From Planctomycetaceae bacterium (lineage in GTDB: Bacteria; Planctomycetota; Planctomycetia; Pirellulales; Lacipirellulaceae): DNA of 64,000 nt. Both the position numbers and the translations under genes were made by a program. Shown piece by piece: positions 10,154 through 19,479 of this stretch. Under the pieces are notes generated by a model. That model saw nothing but the letters and a program-made list of their open reading frames with translations, had not been told where the DNA came from and ran no database searches. The DNA lies in assembly GCA_003233055.1 (NCBI GenBank), contig QIKP01000014.1, positions 60,387 through 124,386 on the forward strand, given 5' to 3'. Positions within the stretch are counted from its first letter, which is position 1. Each line of letters opens with the position of its first letter.

Positions 10154-12286
10154 ATGAGTACCTCCGAGTTCTCCAATACGCCTCGATCGCCCGAATCGGC
10201 CCTTACCGTCGATCCGGAGGATGTCCAGCGCGCCAAGCGCGAGATCCAGTCGATCGTCCAACAAATCGCTGAACTCTCGCGATCCGATGTCCCGCTCGAG
10301 CAGTTCTACGACGAATTCCTCAATAAAGTGGTGACTGCTCTGGCGGCTGTGGGGGGAGCGGTTTGGACGCGCGGCAATGGCGGTTTTCAGCTCACCTACC
10401 AAATCAACCTCCGCGACACGGGCCTGATCGACGACCCGATCGGCCAGGAGCAGCATGGCCGACTGCTGCAACAGGCGGTGACCAGCGAAGAGGGGCTGCT
10501 GGTTGCCCCTCACTCGGGCCACGCCGTCAGCGGCGAGAATCTGCCTGGCGACGACACCGACGAACACGCGGCGGCGAACCCGACCAACTACTTGCTGGTC
10601 CTCATGCCGGTCCATAACGACGAAGGGCCGCAAGGGATCGTGGAGGTTTTTCAGCGTCCTGGCTCGCGTCCCGCGACGCAGCGTGGTTACTTGCGGTTTT
10701 TGCAACAGACCTGCGACATTGCGGGGGAGTACCTCCGTTCTCGACGACTTCGGCATCTCTCGGAGAAGCAGTCGCTTTGGGAACAACTCGAATCGTTCAC
10801 GCGTACCGCCCACGCCACGCTGGACGTTCGCGAGGCGGCCTACTCGATCGCCAACGAAGGTCGCCGGCTCATCGGTTGCGACCGGGTGAGTGTCGCCATC
10901 CGGCGGGGGAGCAAGTGCGTCGTCGAGGCGGTGAGTGGCCAGGACACGTTCGACAAGCGGTCGAACGTCGTGACGCTGCTCAATCGGCTCACGCGCGCGG
11001 TCACCAAGACGGGCGAAGACGTTTGGTACACGGGCGACACCAAGGACATGGCCCCGCAGGTCGAAAAGGCGATCGATGCCTACGTCGACGAATCGAACAC
11101 CAAGAGCATGGCGATCCTGCCACTCATCAAGCCCGACCGCGATGCCGAGGAAGGCAAACCGAACCAGAAGAAACGCCAAGAAGTCTTCGGCGCGCTCGTC
11201 GTCGAGCAGATGGTCGACACGAGCCCCTCGGACGGCTACGCCCAGCGCGTCGACGTGGTGCGAACCCACAGCGCGACAGCCCTCGCCAATGCCTTGGAGC
11301 ACCACAGCCTATTCCTCATGCCACTCTGGAAGATGCTCGGCAAAGCAACGTCGCTCTTTCGTGGTCGGACCAAGTGGAAGACCTTCGCTGGCCTTGCCGC
11401 AGCGATCGGGCTCGTGCTGGGAGCCCTTTTCTATGAGACCGACCTGAACCTCGAGGGGGACGCGCGACTGAAACCGACCACCTTGCGAAGCGTTTTTGCC
11501 CACATCGATGGGGAAATCAGCGAAGTCTTGGTGCAGTACAATCAAAAGGTCGAAGCAGGACAGGTGCTCGTCACCCAAAAAAGCCTGGAACTCGACAAGG
11601 AAATCAAACGGCTCCTCGGGCAAGCGAGCGAAATCGATGAACAAATCGCCTCACTCGCCCGACAGCAGATCGGCGGTGGGCTCTCCCAGGGAGAAAAACG
11701 AGAGGCCTCGGCAAGACTCGCCGAACTGCGGACCGAACGGAGAACCCTCGACAGCCAGCTCGCGAAGGTCGAAGAACAAATCGCCCTGCTCCAGGTCACC
11801 AGCCCGATCGCGGGCCGCGTCATCACCGGCAAGAGCCAGATTGAGCAACTCACCGGTCGCCCCGTCGGCCGGGGGCAGTCGCTCATGGAGGTGGCCGAAC
11901 TGACCGGCGATTGGTGGCTTGAGGTCCTCATGCCGGAGTCGCGCATGCGATTCGTCGCCGAGCAGTGGAACCTGTCGCAGCAATCGGGTGAGCCACTCCG
12001 CGTCACCTTCTTCGTCTCCTCGCTTCCCGAAGAGCATTTCTCGGGAAGCGTGAAGCTGATCGAAACAACGGCTGAAGCGAGGGGAGAGGAAGGGAATACC
12101 GTGCTGCTTCGCATCGAGTTCGACGAAGGCGAGTTGACCCGACTTCGAGAGATCATTGGCGACGACCCCAAGGTCGGTGCCGAAGCGATTGCGAAGGTGC
12201 ACTGCGGAAAAGAACCGATCGGCTACGTCTATTTGCACGATCTGTTCGACTTTATCCAGGCCAAGATTTTGTTCCGGCTCTGGTAA
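10154..12286 (+). CDS. GAF-domain + HlyD/biotin-lipoyl-like membrane fusion protein
   Basis: N-terminal GAF-like region, single TM near residue 420, 'GEISEVLVQYNQKVEAGQVLVTQKSLELDKEI...ITSPIAGRVITG' HlyD pattern. Confidence 0.8.
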   Translation: MSTSEFSNTPRSPESALTVDPEDVQRAKREIQSIVQQIAELSRSDVPLEQFYDEFLNKVVTALAAVGGAVWTRGNGGFQLTYQINLRDTGLIDDPIGQEQHGRLLQQAVTSEEGLLVAPHSGHAVSGENLPGDDTDEHAAANPTNYLLVLMPVHNDEGPQGIVEVFQRPGSRPATQRGYLRFLQQTCDIAGEYLRSRRLRHLSEKQSLWEQLESFTRTAHATLDVREAAYSIANEGRRLIGCDRVSVAIRRGSKCVVEAVSGQDTFDKRSNVVTLLNRLTRAVTKTGEDVWYTGDTKDMAPQVEKAIDAYVDESNTKSMAILPLIKPDRDAEEGKPNQKKRQEVFGALVVEQMVDTSPSDGYAQRVDVVRTHSATALANALEHHSLFLMPLWKMLGKATSLFRGRTKWKTFAGLAAAIGLVLGALFYETDLNLEGDARLKPTTLRSVFAHIDGEISEVLVQYNQKVEAGQVLVTQKSLELDKEIKRLLGQASEIDEQIASLARQQIGGGLSQGEKREASARLAELRTERRTLDSQLAKVEEQIALLQVTSPIAGRVITGKSQIEQLTGRPVGRGQSLMEVAELTGDWWLEVLMPESRMRFVAEQWNLSQQSGEPLRVTFFVSSLPEEHFSGSVKLIETTAEARGEEGNTVLLRIEFDEGELTRLREIIGDDPKVGAEAIAKVHCGKEPIGYVYLHDLFDFIQAKILFRLW

Positions 12287-12394
12287 GCCGGTCCGTGAGA
12301 GGGCGGAGGGCTGAGACAACGGCCCCTCCCCTTGTTGCTTTTATTTGTGTGACTCGTGGTTGATTTTCCTTTGGAGCAACAACTGGCAACGGCT

Positions 12395-13357
12395 ATGAAA
12401 ACCATCTTCCCTACGATCGCCCTCTTCAGTGTCTTCTTCGGTGTCTTCTTCGCTGCTTTGGGCCCGACGACTTTCGGCCAATCGCCTTCCGAGCGCGACC
12501 CGGAGCTACCCGAATGTCAGTTTTCGTTCTTGCAACACAACATCATCGAGATCGCGGCGGAAAAGGCGGGCGTTCTTCGCCACATGTCCGTCCGCGAAGG
12601 GTCGTTGGTCGACGAGGGGGAGGTCGTCGCTCGAATTGACGACCAAGAAGCGAAGATGCAGTGGCAAGTCGCCGAGCAGCAACGCCTCGCGGCGCTCGCC
12701 CGGTACAACGACGAGATCGAAAAACTCTACGCCGTCAAGGCTTCCGAAGTTGCCAAGGCCGACTACGAAGGGCTGCTCGATGCCAACTCCGGCAGCATCG
12801 ATAAAGTGGTCACCGAAACCGACCTCCGGCGTGCCAAGCTGGAATGGGAGCGGGCGGATCTGCAAATCGAGAAGGCGGGCAAAGACAAAACCCTCGCCGG
12901 CTACGAGTACCTCATCCGCAAAGCGGAGGTCGCCGCCACCAACATGGAAATCGACCGACGGATTGTCAAAGCCCCGTTTGCCGGGCAAGTCATGGAACTC
13001 TTTAAAAAGCAGGGCGAATGGGTCAATCCGGGCGATCCTCTCTTGCAATACGCCCGGTACGACACGCTCCGATGCGACGGACGGGTTTCGCTGAACGACT
13101 ACGACCCGAGAGAAATCGAAGGCTGCGACGTGACGGTCACCGCCGTTGTGGGACGAGGGGTCGCCGTCGAAGCGAAGGGAAAAATTACCTACGTCGAGCA
13201 ACTCGTCCAGTACGAAGGCCAATACACCTACCGCATCCAAGCAGAAATCCCCAACCAACTCCAAGGAGGCAGGTGGCTACTGCTCCCGGGGCTCTCGGCA
13301 AAGATGACCATCCACTTGGACCCGACGAGGCGTAGCTCGTCGGCTAGGCGCCAATAG
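12395..13357 (+). CDS. HlyD-like periplasmic adaptor subunit
   Basis: Signal peptide, 'AEKAGVLRHMSVREGSLVDEGEVVARID...IVKAPFAGQVMELFKKQGEWVNPGDPLLQYA'; ATG at 12395 preferred over upstream GTG. Confidence 0.8.
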   Translation: MKTIFPTIALFSVFFGVFFAALGPTTFGQSPSERDPELPECQFSFLQHNIIEIAAEKAGVLRHMSVREGSLVDEGEVVARIDDQEAKMQWQVAEQQRLAALARYNDEIEKLYAVKASEVAKADYEGLLDANSGSIDKVVTETDLRRAKLEWERADLQIEKAGKDKTLAGYEYLIRKAEVAATNMEIDRRIVKAPFAGQVMELFKKQGEWVNPGDPLLQYARYDTLRCDGRVSLNDYDPREIEGCDVTVTAVVGRGVAVEAKGKITYVEQLVQYEGQYTYRIQAEIPNQLQGGRWLLLPGLSAKMTIHLDPTRRSSSARRQ

Positions 13358-13380
13358 CCGACGAGCAACGCCTCGTCGGG
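13322..13380. repeat. Two family A palindromes as an adjacent pair
   Basis: CCGACGAGGCGTAGCTCGTCGGCT ... AGCCGACGAGCAACGCCTCGTCGGG. Confidence 0.85.
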
Positions 13381-13410
13381 AACCCCTTCGGCTTTTGATA
13401 TTTTTCTCCT

Positions 13411-15669
13411 ATGGCTACGACTCTTGCTGACAGCCTGGTTTCTAGCTCTTCGCGGGCGCTCGCCATTCGTGTGCGGCCCGATCTGAAGGCGCGGCGAGTC
13501 CGCTACCAGGGGCGAAACTATTGGGTGGTGAAGGACCCGGTCGGGCTCCAGTACTTCCGCTTCGAAGAAGAAGAATTCGCCATCCTGCAGATGCTCGACG
13601 GCGAATCGAGCCTCGAAGAAATCGCCGAACGGTTCGAGACAGAGTACCCGCCCCAGACCATCCGATCGGAAGAATTGCAACAGTTCATCGGTATGCTCCA
13701 CCGCAGCGGACTCGTGATTACCGGTGCGGGGGGGCAAGGGGTGCAGCTCAAGAAGCTCCGCGACGAAAAAGCGACCAAGCAGCGAATCGCCACCTTCAGC
13801 AATATCTTGTCGGTCCGCTTCAAAGGGATCGACCCGGAACGGCTCCTCAACTTTCTCGATGGCTACCTCGGGTGGTTTTGGTCGAAGCCCGCTTTCGCCC
13901 TCAATATGATGCTCGTCCTTACGGCGGCCACACTCATCCTGGTGCAATTCGATGTCTTTCAGTCGAAGCTGCCTTCGTTCAACTCGTTTTTTGAGGCCCA
14001 AAAATGGCTCCTCCTGGGCGGGGTCCTCGCCTGCACCAAGGTGATCCATGAGTTTGGTCATGGGCTCAGTTGCAAGTACTTCGGTGGCGAATGCCACGAG
14101 ATGGGGATCATGTTCCTCGTGCTGACCCCTTGCCTCTATTGCAACGTGTCGGACTCGTGGATGCTCCCCAACAAATGGCATCGGGCGGCGATCGGGGCGG
14201 CCGGGATGTACGTCGAGGTGGTGCTCGCGTCGATTTGCACCTTTATCTGGTGGTTCTCCGAGCCAGGGTTCTTGAACTACCTTTGTCTGAACATCATGTT
14301 CGTCAGTTCGGTGAGCACGATTCTGTTTAACGCCAATCCCCTCTTGCGGTACGATGGATACTACATCGCGAGCGACGTGCTGGAGATCCCCAATTTGAGG
14401 CAGAAAGCGACCTCGATCCTCAGCCGAACGCTGGGCAAGTGGTGCCTGGGGATCGAACCGCCCGACGACCCGTTCTTGCCGAAGAGCAATCAAGGCATGT
14501 TTGCGCTCTACAGCGTGGCGGCGGCCATCTACCGTTGGGTCGTCGTGCTGTCGATCTTGTATTTCCTCAACCAAGTCTTCGAACCGTACGGACTCAAGAT
14601 CTTGGGGCAGGCGATCGCGATGATGTCGATTTATGGACTACTGGTGCAACCCCTTGTCAAACTCTACAAATATTTCAAAGTGCCTGGGAGGATGGGAAAA
14701 GTGAAACGCTGGCGATTCCTAACGACGCTGTTCCTCGTCATCGCGATCCTAACAGCGGTCGTGAATGTCCCGTTGCCGTCGTACGTCTATTCGACCCTCG
14801 TTGTGCAGCCTCGCAATGCGGAAATCGTCTCGGTCAAAGTCGATGGCAGGCTCGAATCGATTGCCGAAGGCGTCGAACCAGGCGCCCATGTCGAGAAGGG
14901 CCAAGTCCTCGCCCAGTTGCGAAATTTACAGCTCGAGGCAGCACTGGTCGGACTGGAAGGCGAGCGGGCCGTTCTGATCGAGCGATTGCGGAGCCGCCAG
15001 GCACTCAGCCATGTCGGGAACCGGGCCGATCGAACCGCCGCGAAGAACGAGATCGCCAACTTCCGGAAGCGACTTCAATCGATCGACACGCAGATCTCGC
15101 TCCAGAAAGAAGACCTCCAGCGGCTGGTGATCCGCGCACCGCGCACCGGGGTGATCATCCCTCCCGAGATCGTTCCCGATTCGCGTCGTGACGACAAGGA
15201 ACTCACCACCTGGCATGGGACCCCCTTTGATAAGCGCAACCTAGGGGCAACGCTCCAGACCGGCACGAAGTTTTGCTGGATTGGCGACCCAACCGATCTG
15301 GAAGCCCGCCTGCTCGTCGAGCAAGACAGCTCGAATCGAGTCCGCCGGCAGCAACCGGTCCAGGTACTGCTCCGCCAGTCGGCAGACATTCGCTACACCA
15401 CCTTCATCGAAGACCGCGAGGAAGACAAAGTGCCAGTCGCCCCCGCCCGACTCTCGAGTCTCACCGGGGGGTCGCTGCCGACCGAGATGGACAAATCGGG
15501 CGTCCCCCGGCCACTCACCCCCCACTACTACGCCTTCGCTCCACTCCCCAACGACCCCGATCGCCTCCGCGTGGGGCTGATCGGCGAAGCGAAGATACGA
15601 ACCCCCGACCGGACGCTCGGCCAGCGCATCTACCGTTACGCAGCCCGGACGTTTAACTTTGAATTGTGA
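13411..15669 (+). CDS. Site-2 protease-like M50 metallopeptidase with N-terminal PqqD-like and C-terminal HlyD-like regions
   Basis: HEFGH zinc motif, second motif NPLLRYDG, multiple TMs, C-terminal 'DGRLESIAEGVEPGAHVEKGQVLAQL...IRAPRTGVIIPP'. Confidence 0.85.
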   Translation: MATTLADSLVSSSSRALAIRVRPDLKARRVRYQGRNYWVVKDPVGLQYFRFEEEEFAILQMLDGESSLEEIAERFETEYPPQTIRSEELQQFIGMLHRSGLVITGAGGQGVQLKKLRDEKATKQRIATFSNILSVRFKGIDPERLLNFLDGYLGWFWSKPAFALNMMLVLTAATLILVQFDVFQSKLPSFNSFFEAQKWLLLGGVLACTKVIHEFGHGLSCKYFGGECHEMGIMFLVLTPCLYCNVSDSWMLPNKWHRAAIGAAGMYVEVVLASICTFIWWFSEPGFLNYLCLNIMFVSSVSTILFNANPLLRYDGYYIASDVLEIPNLRQKATSILSRTLGKWCLGIEPPDDPFLPKSNQGMFALYSVAAAIYRWVVVLSILYFLNQVFEPYGLKILGQAIAMMSIYGLLVQPLVKLYKYFKVPGRMGKVKRWRFLTTLFLVIAILTAVVNVPLPSYVYSTLVVQPRNAEIVSVKVDGRLESIAEGVEPGAHVEKGQVLAQLRNLQLEAALVGLEGERAVLIERLRSRQALSHVGNRADRTAAKNEIANFRKRLQSIDTQISLQKEDLQRLVIRAPRTGVIIPPEIVPDSRRDDKELTTWHGTPFDKRNLGATLQTGTKFCWIGDPTDLEARLLVEQDSSNRVRRQQPVQVLLRQSADIRYTTFIEDREEDKVPVAPARLSSLTGGSLPTEMDKSGVPRPLTPHYYAFAPLPNDPDRLRVGLIGEAKIRTPDRTLGQRIYRYAARTFNFEL

Positions 15670-15690: not shown

Positions 15691-15750
15691 CAGCCGCTGA
15701 AGCAGCAACGCCAAGGGGCGTTGGCGTTGGCGATGCCGCTTCAGCGGCAG
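15691..15750. repeat. Two family B palindromes in inverted orientation
   Basis: CAGCCGCTGAAGCAGCAACGCCAAGG / GGCGATGCCGCTTCAGCGGCAG. Confidence 0.8.
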
Positions 15751-15861
15751 TGCGCCGGGTGCCGGGCGCCATCACTGCTAGCAGCTTCGCTCTGGCCCCG
15801 GCTCTGCTGCGTCGTTAGAATCGCGCCCCCTCTTTCCCTGATTTCTAGTGAGGCGCCCGGC

Positions 15862-18800
15862 ATGTCGGTTCGTTTGTTTGCAACCAGTGGCCCGGCGCGC
15901 GCGGCGAAGGCGAAGCGCCGGTTGCTGTTCTTGTTGGTAGTGATTCTAGCGATCGCGATTTTCGCGCCGACGATTGTCCTCCGCACTCCCCTCCGTGGGC
16001 TGCTGCTCGCACGGCTGGTTCCCGCGAACGTCGGGACGGTCACCGCCCAAACCCTCACCGCCGGTTGGTTCACACCGATCTCCGCGAAGCAGGTCGTGTT
16101 CCTCGACCCGTCGGGCAATCGGCTCGCCGAAATCGAACGACTCTCCATCGACCGAACACTTACCGCCCTCCTCAGCAACCACCGCAACCTCGGGACGATC
16201 CGTCTGGAGAACGCCACGGTCTACGCCTTAGTCCGGCCTGACGGGAGTTCAATCGAAGATGCGATTCTTGCGGCAAGCGAAACTCCGCCGGGCCAGGAAA
16301 GGGAGGCCGACACTTCGGCAACGGGCGGTCCCGCCTACCGCCTCGAAGTGGTGAACGGGCGCCTCCTCACGCGCGACGCCGCGACGGGCGAAACCTGGTC
16401 GGCCGAATCGCTTACCGCCACCCTCCACCATCCCGCCTCGGGAGAACAGAAGATCGAGGTGGCCGGGTTCCTGCGGCCCGTGCAGGCCGACGGCGTGACC
16501 TTGGCCCCTTCCCCCGAAGGGGCGGGACGCTTTGAGTTGCGTTGGGGGACCACCGACGAAGGGATCCATGCCACGCGACTCGTCCTCGGGAGCGTCCCGC
16601 TTGCGCCGTTCCGGCCGTGGCTTCAGAGATTCGATCCAGCGCTTCAACTCACCGGGCAGTTGACAGGCAAATTAAGCCTTTCGCATCCGCCAGGAGGGCA
16701 CGAGTCGCTCACCGGCAGTTCGAACGGCCGGCTATCGCTCACCAGCCTGAAAGTCCGCGCCACGGCACTTCATGGCGAAACCTTGCAACTCGATCAGACC
16801 AACCTAGCATGGCAGGGCACGGCACGCGGCGGACGCTTGGCGGTCGAAAACCTCTCCCTAGAATCCGACATCGCCCTGTTCGACCTGCGTGGCACCGCGC
16901 CGGCCCGAGTCGTCAAGCAACTTGCTGCCGGTGAATGGGCCCCGTTGGAGGCCATGACCCGGAGCGACCTCGATATCGAGGGACGCGTCCACCTCGCCCG
17001 ACTCGCCAATCGCCTGCCCGGACTCCTTCTCATTCGCGAAGGAACCAAGATCACCGATGGCCAAGTCCGATTCGCGTCGAAGAGCGAGCCAAGCGAGAAG
17101 GGCCGAAAGCTGACCGCTTCGCTCTCCACCACCTCCCTTTCGGGAACCACCGGGGGACGACCCATCTCCTGGGACGCGCCGCTCCGCGTCGACCTGGTCG
17201 CTCGACAAAGGGACAACCACTTCCGGTTGGATCGACTCGATTGCAAATCCGATTTCTTGCATTTCACCGGCTCGGGCGATACTCGACAAATAAAAATCGA
17301 GGGCCAAGTCGATCTCGACCAACTGGTCCGCCGACTCGAATCGTTCGTCGACTTGACCGATTGGCAGCTCACCGGGCGCAGCAAGCTCGAGATCACCGGT
17401 CAAACCGACGACCGGGGCCGCTTGGTGGCACGCGGCTCGGGCAGCTTTAGCGACATGGTCGTGGCGTTTCGTGGCGATACGCTCGCCCACGAACGACAAC
17501 TCGATTGGCAAACGCACCTCGAAGGGAAGTCGGACGCCTCTTCCCTTTGGCCCCGCCAACTGCAAAGCGGGCAACTATCCCTCACGGCGGGCGGCGACCA
17601 GATGACGCTTCGTCTGACCGAGCCCACCCTTCTCGAAGAATCGTTCTCGGCAACCGAATGGCCCGTAGCGATCACCACGACCGGCCAGCTCGGTAGCTGG
17701 GCAACCCGGCTGCGGCCTTGGGTCGATCTCTCCGCGTGGCAACTCGCCGGTCGGCTCGATTTGCGTGCCGAAGGCCGAGTGCGCGCCGAGCCGCTGGCGC
17801 TGACGTTGGCGAGTTCGGATCTGAAAATCGGCTCGCTCGAAGCGATCTCCGAGGGTTGGGAAATCCGGGAGCCACGCATCGAATGGCAAGGCGACGCCAG
17901 TTGGGATGCCACCACCGGCACCCTCACCAGTCGAGGAGGGCAGCTTCTCAGCAGCACCGCCGCCGCCAGTTTGCGAGATTGGTTTTGGACCAGCGACCCG
18001 CGACAAGCACGCCGCGTCGGTGGGCTAGCGGCCGTGCGCGCCGATCTCGGTCGGCTCGCTGCGATGCGCCGCGCAACGTCAGAGAACGACCCCGACGCCC
18101 TGACACCGGTCGGCGAAGTGAGTGGCAACGTCCAACTTGCGGCCGAGGGAGACCAAATCTTGGCCCGGCTCGATCTGACAGGCACCCACATCGCCCTCAA
18201 AAAACCGCAGCCAAGCTTGCCCGGCCAGCCAGCCACTTGGCAAACCGTTTGGCAAGAGCCCCAACTCCGCGTCACCGGCACCGTCGCCTACTCCCCTGCC
18301 CTCGATCGGCTCAAGCTCGAGAGCCTGCGTACCGAATCCGCATCGCTCGCGCTGGCAGCGAGCGGCCAAATCGAGAACCTGACCAGCGAAGGAGAGGTCG
18401 ACCTTGCAGGCACCGTCGACTACAACCTCAGCCGCCTCACCCCGCTGATCGCCCAGTACGTTGGCCAGGGGATCGCCCTCGCCGGCAACGGGCCTGCACG
18501 GTTCGAGGTCCGAGGCTCGCTGGCCAGTCAACTCCAATTAGAAACCACCCCCCGGCGGCTGGGAACCACGGCGGCGCAAGCCAGCGGTGGTACCCGAGGG
18601 ACGGCCAAAACTTGGCAAGCCCGGGTCCTCGCGCCGTGGACTTCGGCCAGTCTGTATGGCTTGCAGGTGGGTGACGGGCGTCTCTCGGCAGAACTTGCCA
18701 ACGGTCGAATCGCCATCGAGCCGCTCGACTTTGCGATCGGCGGAGGCCGCTTCACCGCGTCGCCAAGCGTTCGCCTCGACCCCGCACCGGGCGAAGTGAC

Positions 18801-19479
18801 GCTCGCTGCCGGGCCGCTGCTCACCGATCTCCGCATCACGAAAGAAGTGAGCGAGCAGATGCTCAAATACATCGCCCCGGTACTAGCCAACCACGCACGG
18901 GGCGAAGGGCTCTTTTCGATGACCCTCACCGGCGCTCGCATCCCTCTCGGCGACCCTGCTGCGGCCGAAGTCGCCGGGCAGCTCCTCGTGCAATCGGCCA
19001 CGATCACTCCCGGACCAATGGTCAAGGAGTGGATCCAAGTCGCCCGTCAAATCGAGGCCCTCGCTCGGGGAGGCACACCAAGCGCATCCCCCACGGGGAG
19101 GCCCACCACCGAAATGACCATCCGTAGTCGGAACGTCAGCTTTCAATTGACCGGCGGTCGTGTGTATCATCAAGGCTTGGAGTTCGAGATTGAAGGAGTC
19201 GTCTTTCGGTCGCGAGGCTCGGTCGGATTCGATCAGACGTTGTCGCTGATGATCGAAATCCCGATCCAGGACCGATGGATCGAGGGAAACCGGCTCCTCT
19301 CCGGTTTGCGAGGCAAGTCGATCGAGCTGCCGGTGACAGGAACCTTTACCAATCGTCGCGTCGACGCCAAAGCCGCCCTCAAGCAAGCAACGCAACTATT
19401 CCTCGGCCGGGATGCCATTCGTGGAGCGATCGGAAATGAAGTCAATCGAGCGCTCAACAAATGGCTCGGCGGCGAATAG
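15862..19479 (+). CDS. Large AsmA/DUF3971-like membrane-anchored protein
   Basis: N-terminal TM (LLFLLVVILAIAIFAPTIVLRTPLR), long beta-rich body with AsmA-like C-terminal part; start moved to 15862 because the upstream part is repeat-derived. Confidence 0.65.
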   Translation: MSVRLFATSGPARAAKAKRRLLFLLVVILAIAIFAPTIVLRTPLRGLLLARLVPANVGTVTAQTLTAGWFTPISAKQVVFLDPSGNRLAEIERLSIDRTLTALLSNHRNLGTIRLENATVYALVRPDGSSIEDAILAASETPPGQEREADTSATGGPAYRLEVVNGRLLTRDAATGETWSAESLTATLHHPASGEQKIEVAGFLRPVQADGVTLAPSPEGAGRFELRWGTTDEGIHATRLVLGSVPLAPFRPWLQRFDPALQLTGQLTGKLSLSHPPGGHESLTGSSNGRLSLTSLKVRATALHGETLQLDQTNLAWQGTARGGRLAVENLSLESDIALFDLRGTAPARVVKQLAAGEWAPLEAMTRSDLDIEGRVHLARLANRLPGLLLIREGTKITDGQVRFASKSEPSEKGRKLTASLSTTSLSGTTGGRPISWDAPLRVDLVARQRDNHFRLDRLDCKSDFLHFTGSGDTRQIKIEGQVDLDQLVRRLESFVDLTDWQLTGRSKLEITGQTDDRGRLVARGSGSFSDMVVAFRGDTLAHERQLDWQTHLEGKSDASSLWPRQLQSGQLSLTAGGDQMTLRLTEPTLLEESFSATEWPVAITTTGQLGSWATRLRPWVDLSAWQLAGRLDLRAEGRVRAEPLALTLASSDLKIGSLEAISEGWEIREPRIEWQGDASWDATTGTLTSRGGQLLSSTAAASLRDWFWTSDPRQARRVGGLAAVRADLGRLAAMRRATSENDPDALTPVGEVSGNVQLAAEGDQILARLDLTGTHIALKKPQPSLPGQPATWQTVWQEPQLRVTGTVAYSPALDRLKLESLRTESASLALAASGQIENLTSEGEVDLAGTVDYNLSRLTPLIAQYVGQGIALAGNGPARFEVRGSLASQLQLETTPRRLGTTAAQASGGTRGTAKTWQARVLAPWTSASLYGLQVGDGRLSAELANGRIAIEPLDFAIGGGRFTASPSVRLDPAPGEVTLAAGPLLTDLRITKEVSEQMLKYIAPVLANHARGEGLFSMTLTGARIPLGDPAAAEVAGQLLVQSATITPGPMVKEWIQVARQIEALARGGTPSASPTGRPTTEMTIRSRNVSFQLTGGRVYHQGLEFEIEGVVFRSRGSVGFDQTLSLMIEIPIQDRWIEGNRLLSGLRGKSIELPVTGTFTNRRVDAKAALKQATQLFLGRDAIRGAIGNEVNRALNKWLGGE

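Follow-up and report, generated by a model that had tools for sequence, protein, structure and literature searches.

Three consecutive open reading frames at positions 10154-15669 of the 64-kb stretch of planctomycete DNA that was analysed (the window) most likely encode the membrane components and adaptors of a secretion machine, first noticed in 2015 and still little known, with which planctomycetes and certain other bacteria probably export giant, LEPR-tagged surface proteins. The fuller explanation, namely a type-I-like machine with a SecA-like motor, in which an RRE domain would read the LEPR-XLL tag, an M50 protease would trim it, and HlyD and TolC components would form the conduit, is considered reasonably probable.

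The three genes share one direction and are separated by intergenic gaps of 69 and 53 bp. The first (10154..12286, + strand) encodes a GAF-TM-HlyD protein of 710 residues, as judged by Pfam, hydropathy, a family HMM and synteny. Pfam returned matches to GAF (1.6e-7) and HlyD_D23 (1.5e-11) and, together with hydropathy, delineated a cytoplasmic GAF region (GAF at residues 224-357), a single TM helix at about residues 408-429, and a periplasmic HlyD barrel-sandwich/hairpin. The protein scored 930 bits against the family HMM, and its orthologue was found at all 20 of the orthologue loci considered. The second gene (12356..13357, + strand) begins with a GTG codon, an ATG being found 13 codons further in, and encodes a short HlyD/RND-type periplasmic adaptor of 333 residues, recognized by Pfam (HlyD_3, 2.3e-13), TIGR01730 (5.8e-21), synteny and hydropathy, with the last revealing a hydrophobic signal at the N-terminus (about residues 12-41). 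The third gene (13411..15669, + strand) encodes an RRE(PqqD-like)-M50-HlyD protein of 752 residues, to which Pfam, profile searches, an AF2 model and a homologue alignment assign an RRE domain (residues 15-104), seven TM helices (159-451) and a periplasmic HlyD domain (454-735). The original prediction of three co-directional genes with these architectures was in this manner confirmed by ORF, Pfam, PDB-profile and AF2 analyses.

In the third protein, Pfam detected Peptidase_M50 (1.1e-6), as well as PqqD (2.3e-4) and HlyD_D23 (1e-3) matches that fell just below and below the cut-off, respectively. The C-terminal part is nonetheless firmly predicted to be of the HlyD type, given a match to MacA (2e-20) in a profile search against the PDB and the similarity of the AF2 model to MacA/MexA/AcrA (E values of about 1e-12 to 1e-8). 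The N-terminal domain (residues 15-104; 13453..13722, + strand), a PqqD-like winged helix according to AF2, Foldseek and hmmsearch, was modelled with a pLDDT of 87.6 as three beta-strands followed by three helices. Its top PDB matches in Foldseek were the TbiB1-leader complex, PqqD and lasso B1 RREs, including TfuB1, which was also matched by hmmsearch (E value of 0.014) across residues 14-100. The modelled fold is that of an RRE (RiPP-recognition) domain and resembles leader-bound RREs, as had been anticipated; an RRE was likewise present in all eight proteobacterial homologues scored. Finally, the HEFGH zinc-binding motif (residues 213-217; 14047..14061, + strand) and the NPLLRYDG second metal-ligand motif (residues 309-316; 14335..14358, + strand) are intact. 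Residues H213, E214, H217, N309, P310, L311, D315 and G316 did not vary across 34 homologues with identities down to 25%, while C221 and C244 were nearly invariant. In the structural model, HExxH falls in TM2, and the HExxH and NP(x)4DG motifs of M50 site-2 proteases both lie in membrane helices. The protein is a predicted protease, and the earlier placement of an M50 protease between adaptor proteins is supported.

Such a combination raises the possibility of RiPP-type maturation and export, whereby, as happens with daptides, a small modified peptide would lose its leader to the RRE-M50 protein before being exported by the HlyD proteins. Indeed, NF041824, describing the daptide intramembrane protease, matched residues 34-411 of the third protein at 1.2e-52, as well as all 34 homologues, and daptide leaders are removed by the same RRE-M50 fusion (PMC10036551). 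Yet the score of 179.3 bits lies below the curated cut-off of 300, no RiPP modification genes were seen among identified neighbours, and the search of the flanks for small precursor ORFs called for by the original prediction found none that is conserved in or beside the cluster at 20 orthologue loci. Because no such ORF is conserved, whereas related cassettes (paralogous and proteobacterial) adjoin giant LEPR-XLL-tagged proteins, the "peptide" in the originally predicted peptide export is unlikely to hold, and this explanation as a whole is regarded as quite improbable. A daptide system proper was rejected, as the family cut-off was not reached and no precursor was present.

The distribution of the genes points to a conserved unit. 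The M50 protein was found in 59 of 60 relatives within the order (Pirellulales), and all three genes occurred together at 20/20 orthologue loci, in agreement with the expected synteny. At 56 further loci, the trio was complete at 46 by a strict test, with the GAF-HlyD gene directly upstream at 50. No second full-length M50-HlyD protein turned up in the window genome, the assembly of which is about 90% complete. The AsmA/DUF748 gene found downstream (15721-19479) was considered as a fourth member and rejected, being conserved in the close family only.

The cluster had been described as being without a recognizable pump. No ABC, RND or outer-membrane-channel gene is indeed found within the cluster, but in substance the description is not supported, since the module includes TolC homologues as well as a SecA-like ATPase of its own. 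The transport role initially proposed is supported. A gene encoding a truncated SecA-like ATPase of about 650 residues lies directly upstream of the trio at 9 of the 42 orthologue loci with enough sequence, as in the orthologous cluster of Blastopirellula marina (locus L119). Across 294 genomes of the phylum, with related genomes being counted as independent, truncated SecA-like proteins were listed for 38/67 genomes containing a full-length M50-HlyD protein versus 1/227 genomes without (Fisher p 3e-28); in the same set, 29 SecA-like genes lay less than 6 kb from an M50-HlyD gene. The protein retains Walker A (GEGKT) and DEAD-type motifs and stops at the point at which canonical SecA enters its helical wing and two-helix finger. 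In the window genome, a SecA-like protein of 650 residues that ends before the wing region is encoded on another contig (G000:C3), while a cassette-type OEP/TolC homologue of 820 residues (600 bits) is encoded on G000:C39, both unlinked to the trio. Elsewhere, a TolC-family gene was found at 14/20 paralogue loci, and five-component cassettes occur in other planctomycete classes (L197, L200, L204, L205 and L206). A homologous plasmid subtype (E. coli, Azospirillum, Cupriavidus and Variovorax) comprises the cassette without the SecA-like gene.

These linkages also bear on whether the trio could instead serve in envelope signalling, as a GAF-gated site-2-protease module whose HlyD parts would be the periplasmic sensors and whose M50 protein would free a membrane-bound regulator. 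The cytoplasmic placement of the GAF domain in a protein with a single TM helix, the intact M50 active-site motifs and the frequent presence of a histidine kinase or Ser/Thr kinase-WD40 gene at paralogue loci are in line with such a role. Still, a conserved membrane-bound regulator was not found adjoining the trio, and it is with SecA-like ATPase, TolC channel and giant genes that stable linkage is seen, making signalling very unlikely.

As to the cargo, giant genes with a LEPR-type tag lay beside 8/20 paralogue loci versus 0/20 orthologue loci (p 0.003), with the former count rising to 11/20 once upstream sequence was read. Among proteobacterial plasmid cassettes, the giant N-terminus was in view in 13; ten of these also showed the tag, whereas those of A. 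thermophilum, Phyllobacterium and Magnetospirillum did not. Giants beside cassettes are annotated as LEPR-XLL (NF012209) and DUF4347, and the LEPR-XLL-type tags at their N-termini contain no hydrophobic Sec-type core and no Sec signal. Giant surface proteins with a LEPR tag are the likely cargo of this type of machine. The window genome itself encodes four LEPR-type N-termini and yielded three NF012209 matches above the cut-off, one of which (C4) is probably due to chance. A genome-wide count of the tag by DNA pattern (20/30 matches in M50-positive genomes versus 6/12 for a codon-reversed control) was too weak a test against that control and was dropped as evidence.

Since no tagged giant was found near the orthologue group (0/20 loci) or in the 64-kb window, the cargo of the window copy is deduced from the situation at paralogue loci and from the tagged genes that this genome carries at other places; what this unlinked copy exports is the least certain point of the explanation. 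It could be that the paralogues are the LEPR-XLL exporter, with the universal Pirellulales copy exporting some other, housekeeping cargo. Both the near-universal presence of the orthologue group (59/60) and the linkage of tagged giants to paralogues and never to orthologues (20 loci) would fit this division of labour, but the window genome contains LEPR-type genes and, in an assembly of this completeness, only the one full-length M50-HlyD protein, and a different task for the orthologue is regarded as unlikely.

In the preferred explanation, that of LEPR-XLL export, the cluster products would associate to form the inner-membrane and periplasmic portion of a type-I-like secretion machine, the motor of which would be the dedicated shortened SecA-like ATPase encoded elsewhere (G000:C3) rather than an ABC transporter. 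The cytoplasmic RRE domain of the third protein would recognize the Sec-less N-terminal tag of the giants, the SecA-like ATPase would drive the chain outwards through the inner membrane, with the M50 membrane domain (or SecYEG) as the crossing point, and membrane-level trimming of the tag would fall to the M50 centre. A periplasmic conduit to the TolC-family channel would be built from the three HlyD parts, and export is probably gated by the first protein, whose GAF domain would sense a cytoplasmic ligand. Going further, these components may define a secretion system distinct from others. Giants would be selected by RiPP logic (RRE leader recognition plus intramembrane leader cutting), a finger-less SecA would power export, and the fusion of RRE, protease and adaptor would be the gate in the inner membrane. 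Such a system would be universal in Pirellulales and, through transfer, patchily distributed across Proteobacteria, E. coli plasmids among them; this broader proposal is offered tentatively, at slightly less than even chances.

The locus type is not undescribed, as originally thought. A secondary SecA_DEAD/HlyD/M50/GAF locus was described by Kamneva, Poudel and Ward (2015; PMC4452313), with Blastopirellula marina among the example species; an operon of Methylobacterium extorquens AM1 (META1p2402-2399) is also named there. In the proposal of those authors, SecA supplies the motor and the M50 protein the pore; they called the role completely unknown and noted that locus partners may sit elsewhere in the genome; PqqD/RRE domains, LEPR-XLL cargo and adhesins are not mentioned. 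No later description was found among the freely accessible journal papers searched. What the present analysis adds is the RRE domain, the relationship to the daptide protease and the likely cargo. Giant surface proteins are numerous in planctomycetes, and in the same literature no secretion route was found to have been assigned to LEPR-XLL/DUF4347 giants. Given the linkage to the LEPR-XLL tag and an RRE suited to reading tags, the role and cargo left unknown in 2015 therefore become testable.

Compared with the 2015 locus, the same phyla and parts are involved, namely GAF-HlyD, HlyD and M50-HlyD proteins (all in the window trio), a second SecA from which most of the SecA_SW (wing-scaffold) region is missing and, sometimes linked, an OEP/TolC protein; in the window genome, unlike in that locus, the SecA-like and OEP genes are unlinked. 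The daptide leader protease MpaP (NF041824) shares the fusion of an RRE to an M50 intramembrane protease, whereas the third protein adds a C-terminal HlyD domain and stands apart from any small precursor or daptide enzymes. Like accessory SecA2 systems of Gram-positive bacteria, in which the SecA paralogue works with SecY or SecY2 and Asp proteins, the module would devote a second, divergent SecA to selected surface proteins, but the one found here is cut short at the wing/two-helix-finger region and shows linkage to HlyD/TolC parts. With type I secretion (HlyB-HlyD-TolC) it has in common HlyD-type adaptors, a TolC-family channel and, probably, giant Sec-less cargo, while differing in that the tag is N-terminal rather than C-terminal, that no ABC gene is found in the trio cluster or annotated plasmid cassettes, and that a SecA-like ATPase and an M50 membrane protein would replace the ABC transporter; if so, a SecA-type motor would feed a TolC-type conduit with no ABC transporter involved.

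Three co-directional genes were found on the + strand where the original prediction had placed them, namely at 10154-12286 (GAF-HlyD; Pfam GAF and HlyD), 12356-13357 (HlyD; Pfam HlyD) and 13411-15669 (M50-HlyD; Pfam M50, with PqqD and HlyD sub-threshold), separated by gaps of 69 and 53 bp. The AsmA/DUF748-like gene that lies directly 3' of this trio in the same orientation (15721-19479, +) is probably a neighbor rather than a component, as it adjoins the trio only in near relatives (about eight loci).

In the PDB, a profile built from 34 third-protein homologues matched MacA (2e-20), the site-2 protease structure 3b4r (0.002) and the lasso RRE TfuB1 (0.014). The AF2 model of residues 1-130 (pLDDT 87.6) comprises three strands followed by three helices; Foldseek placed the leader-bound RRE TbiB1 first among PDB structures, ahead of PqqD and further RREs, at probabilities near 1 yet E-values of only 3e-3 to 3e-2. 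The PqqD-like fold expected at the N-terminus is thus predicted by the model, and an RRE was found in all eight proteobacterial homologues scored. In the whole-protein model (pLDDT 82), the RRE precedes seven membrane helices, the second containing HEFGH, and a HlyD fold matching MacA, MexA and AcrA. Given this arrangement of helices and HlyD fold, the RRE would be cytoplasmic and the HlyD portion periplasmic. As the catalytic residues are invariant across the 34 homologues (identity down to 25%), the domains and motifs originally described were confirmed. In the cysteine-bearing segment SCKYFGGECHEMG...TPCLYCN (residues 220-244; window 14068-14142), C221 and C244 are nearly invariant in the same homologues, suggesting a structural or metal-related role.

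The M50 protein is present order-wide, in 59 of 60 relatives, usually as a 45-73% identical orthologue together with a 30-40% paralogue. The predicted synteny likewise held: all three genes are retained in 20/20 orthologue loci examined and, by a strict test, in 46 of 56 further loci from named Planctomycetes; GAF-HlyD lies directly upstream in 50 of the 56. Beyond the trio, gene contexts vary. An in-frame stop interrupts some of the paralogous M50-HlyD copies (G195:C5:46615-48822 and G164:C1:140496-142667; genome:contig:positions), suggesting decaying copies or assembly errors.

The description of the cluster as without a recognizable pump was, in substance, not sustained. Of the 42 orthologue loci whose upstream sequence was long enough, 9, such as that of B. 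marina, encode a SecA-like protein of ~650 aa directly before GAF-HlyD. The source genome encodes its own on contig C3 (L179:8198-10150), unlinked to the trio, as well as a canonical SecA of 912 aa. The SecA-like protein comprises NBD1, the preprotein cross-linking domain and NBD2, with Walker A and DEAD-type residues invariant in 13 sequences; it aligns with B. subtilis SecA residues 10-608 and therefore ends just before the region of the wing and two-helix finger. Among the best-scoring matches listed across the phylum (294 genomes), 38/67 genomes with full-length M50-HlyD have the truncated SecA-like protein, as against 1/227 of those without (Fisher p 3e-28, counting related, non-independent genomes separately), and 29 such genes lie at 6 kb or less from M50-HlyD.

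Within the same taxonomic order, a TolC-family, lipoprotein-like channel gene is linked in 14/20 paralogue loci, and the source genome has a cassette-type channel on contig C39 (600 bits to the cassette model). Complete cassettes (GAF-HlyD, HlyD, SecA-like, M50 and OEP, the outer-membrane channel) occur in other planctomycete classes (loci L197, L200 and L204-L206). Among the recurrent neighbors of paralogous cassettes and giant genes are large Ser/Thr kinases that combine WD40 repeats with a zinc-ribbon-like segment at the N-terminus (L060:3-2558, L072:10666-16725, L207:84-5792 and L210:9550-14649; domains scanned for L060 and L072); these are possible regulators or partners. PAS/HAMP histidine kinases of one cluster also recur adjoining such cassettes (L063:981-2588, L065:913-2703 and L069:16143-17651).

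Giant genes with an N-terminal LEPR-XLL-like tag (e.g., LEERRVLSA, LEPRVVLTA and LERRRVLSAD) adjoin 8/20 paralogue loci as compared to 0/20 orthologue loci (p 0.003), rising to 11/20 paralogue loci once upstream sequence was read. Among 274 long ORFs, the pattern fell within residues 1-140 in 11, each longer than 700 aa, and within residues 141-280 in 2. The source genome encodes LEPR-type N-termini elsewhere (at least four, on other contigs), yet no tagged gene lies near the window's own orthologue; the cargo of the window copy is therefore the least certain step of the exporter reading.

Homologues carried on plasmids of Alpha-, Beta- and Gammaproteobacteria share the arrangement of a giant gene adjoining adaptor genes, with a SecA-like gene in 7 of 18 cassettes. 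Their tags, including ALEPRFLLSAD, TLEPRVLLNAD, PIEPRILLSAD, ALEPRFMFDAA, ALESRQLFDGA, ALEPRLLYDAA, PMEPRVLLSAD and ALEARYMFDAA, are without a hydrophobic signal-peptide core. Among plasmid records, 18 of E. coli and 8 of Citrobacter yielded homologues of the third protein. The E. coli IncF plasmid NZ_CP081687.1 (53820-69240) bears a complete TolC/RND-adaptor/HlyD/M50-HlyD cassette, whose Ig-like giant of ~4,460 aa carries ALESRQLFDGA. Alphaproteobacterial cassettes place a small DUF3467 gene between the giant gene and GAF-HlyD (L170:11690-12010, L171:11651-11947, L218:17809-18090 and L220:7641-7985).

Together, these data support a reading of the trio as part of a type-I-like exporter, in which a SecA-like protein would be the motor and LEPR-XLL giants the cargo. 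Leaders at the N-terminus are what RRE domains bind and, in daptides, what an RRE-M50 protease removes (PMC10036551); the most natural reading is therefore that the RRE of the third protein would read the LEPR tag and its M50 center would cut it, while the GAF domain would gate export; these steps, and the inner-membrane route, are what we infer. The machine is not undescribed, as originally proposed, since the SecA_DEAD / HlyD / M50 / GAF locus type is already known (Kamneva, Poudel and Ward, 2015; PMC4452313). Its authors suggested that SecA drives the machine and that the M50 protein forms its pore. The terms PqqD, LEPR, cadherin and adhesin are absent from that paper; the present analysis adds the RRE domain, kinship to the daptide protease, order-wide universality and LEPR-XLL giants as the proposed cargo. 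As such, the cargo question for this locus is now directly testable. The window trio belongs to this known type of putative secretion locus, with the motor and channel genes of the source genome unlinked to the trio.
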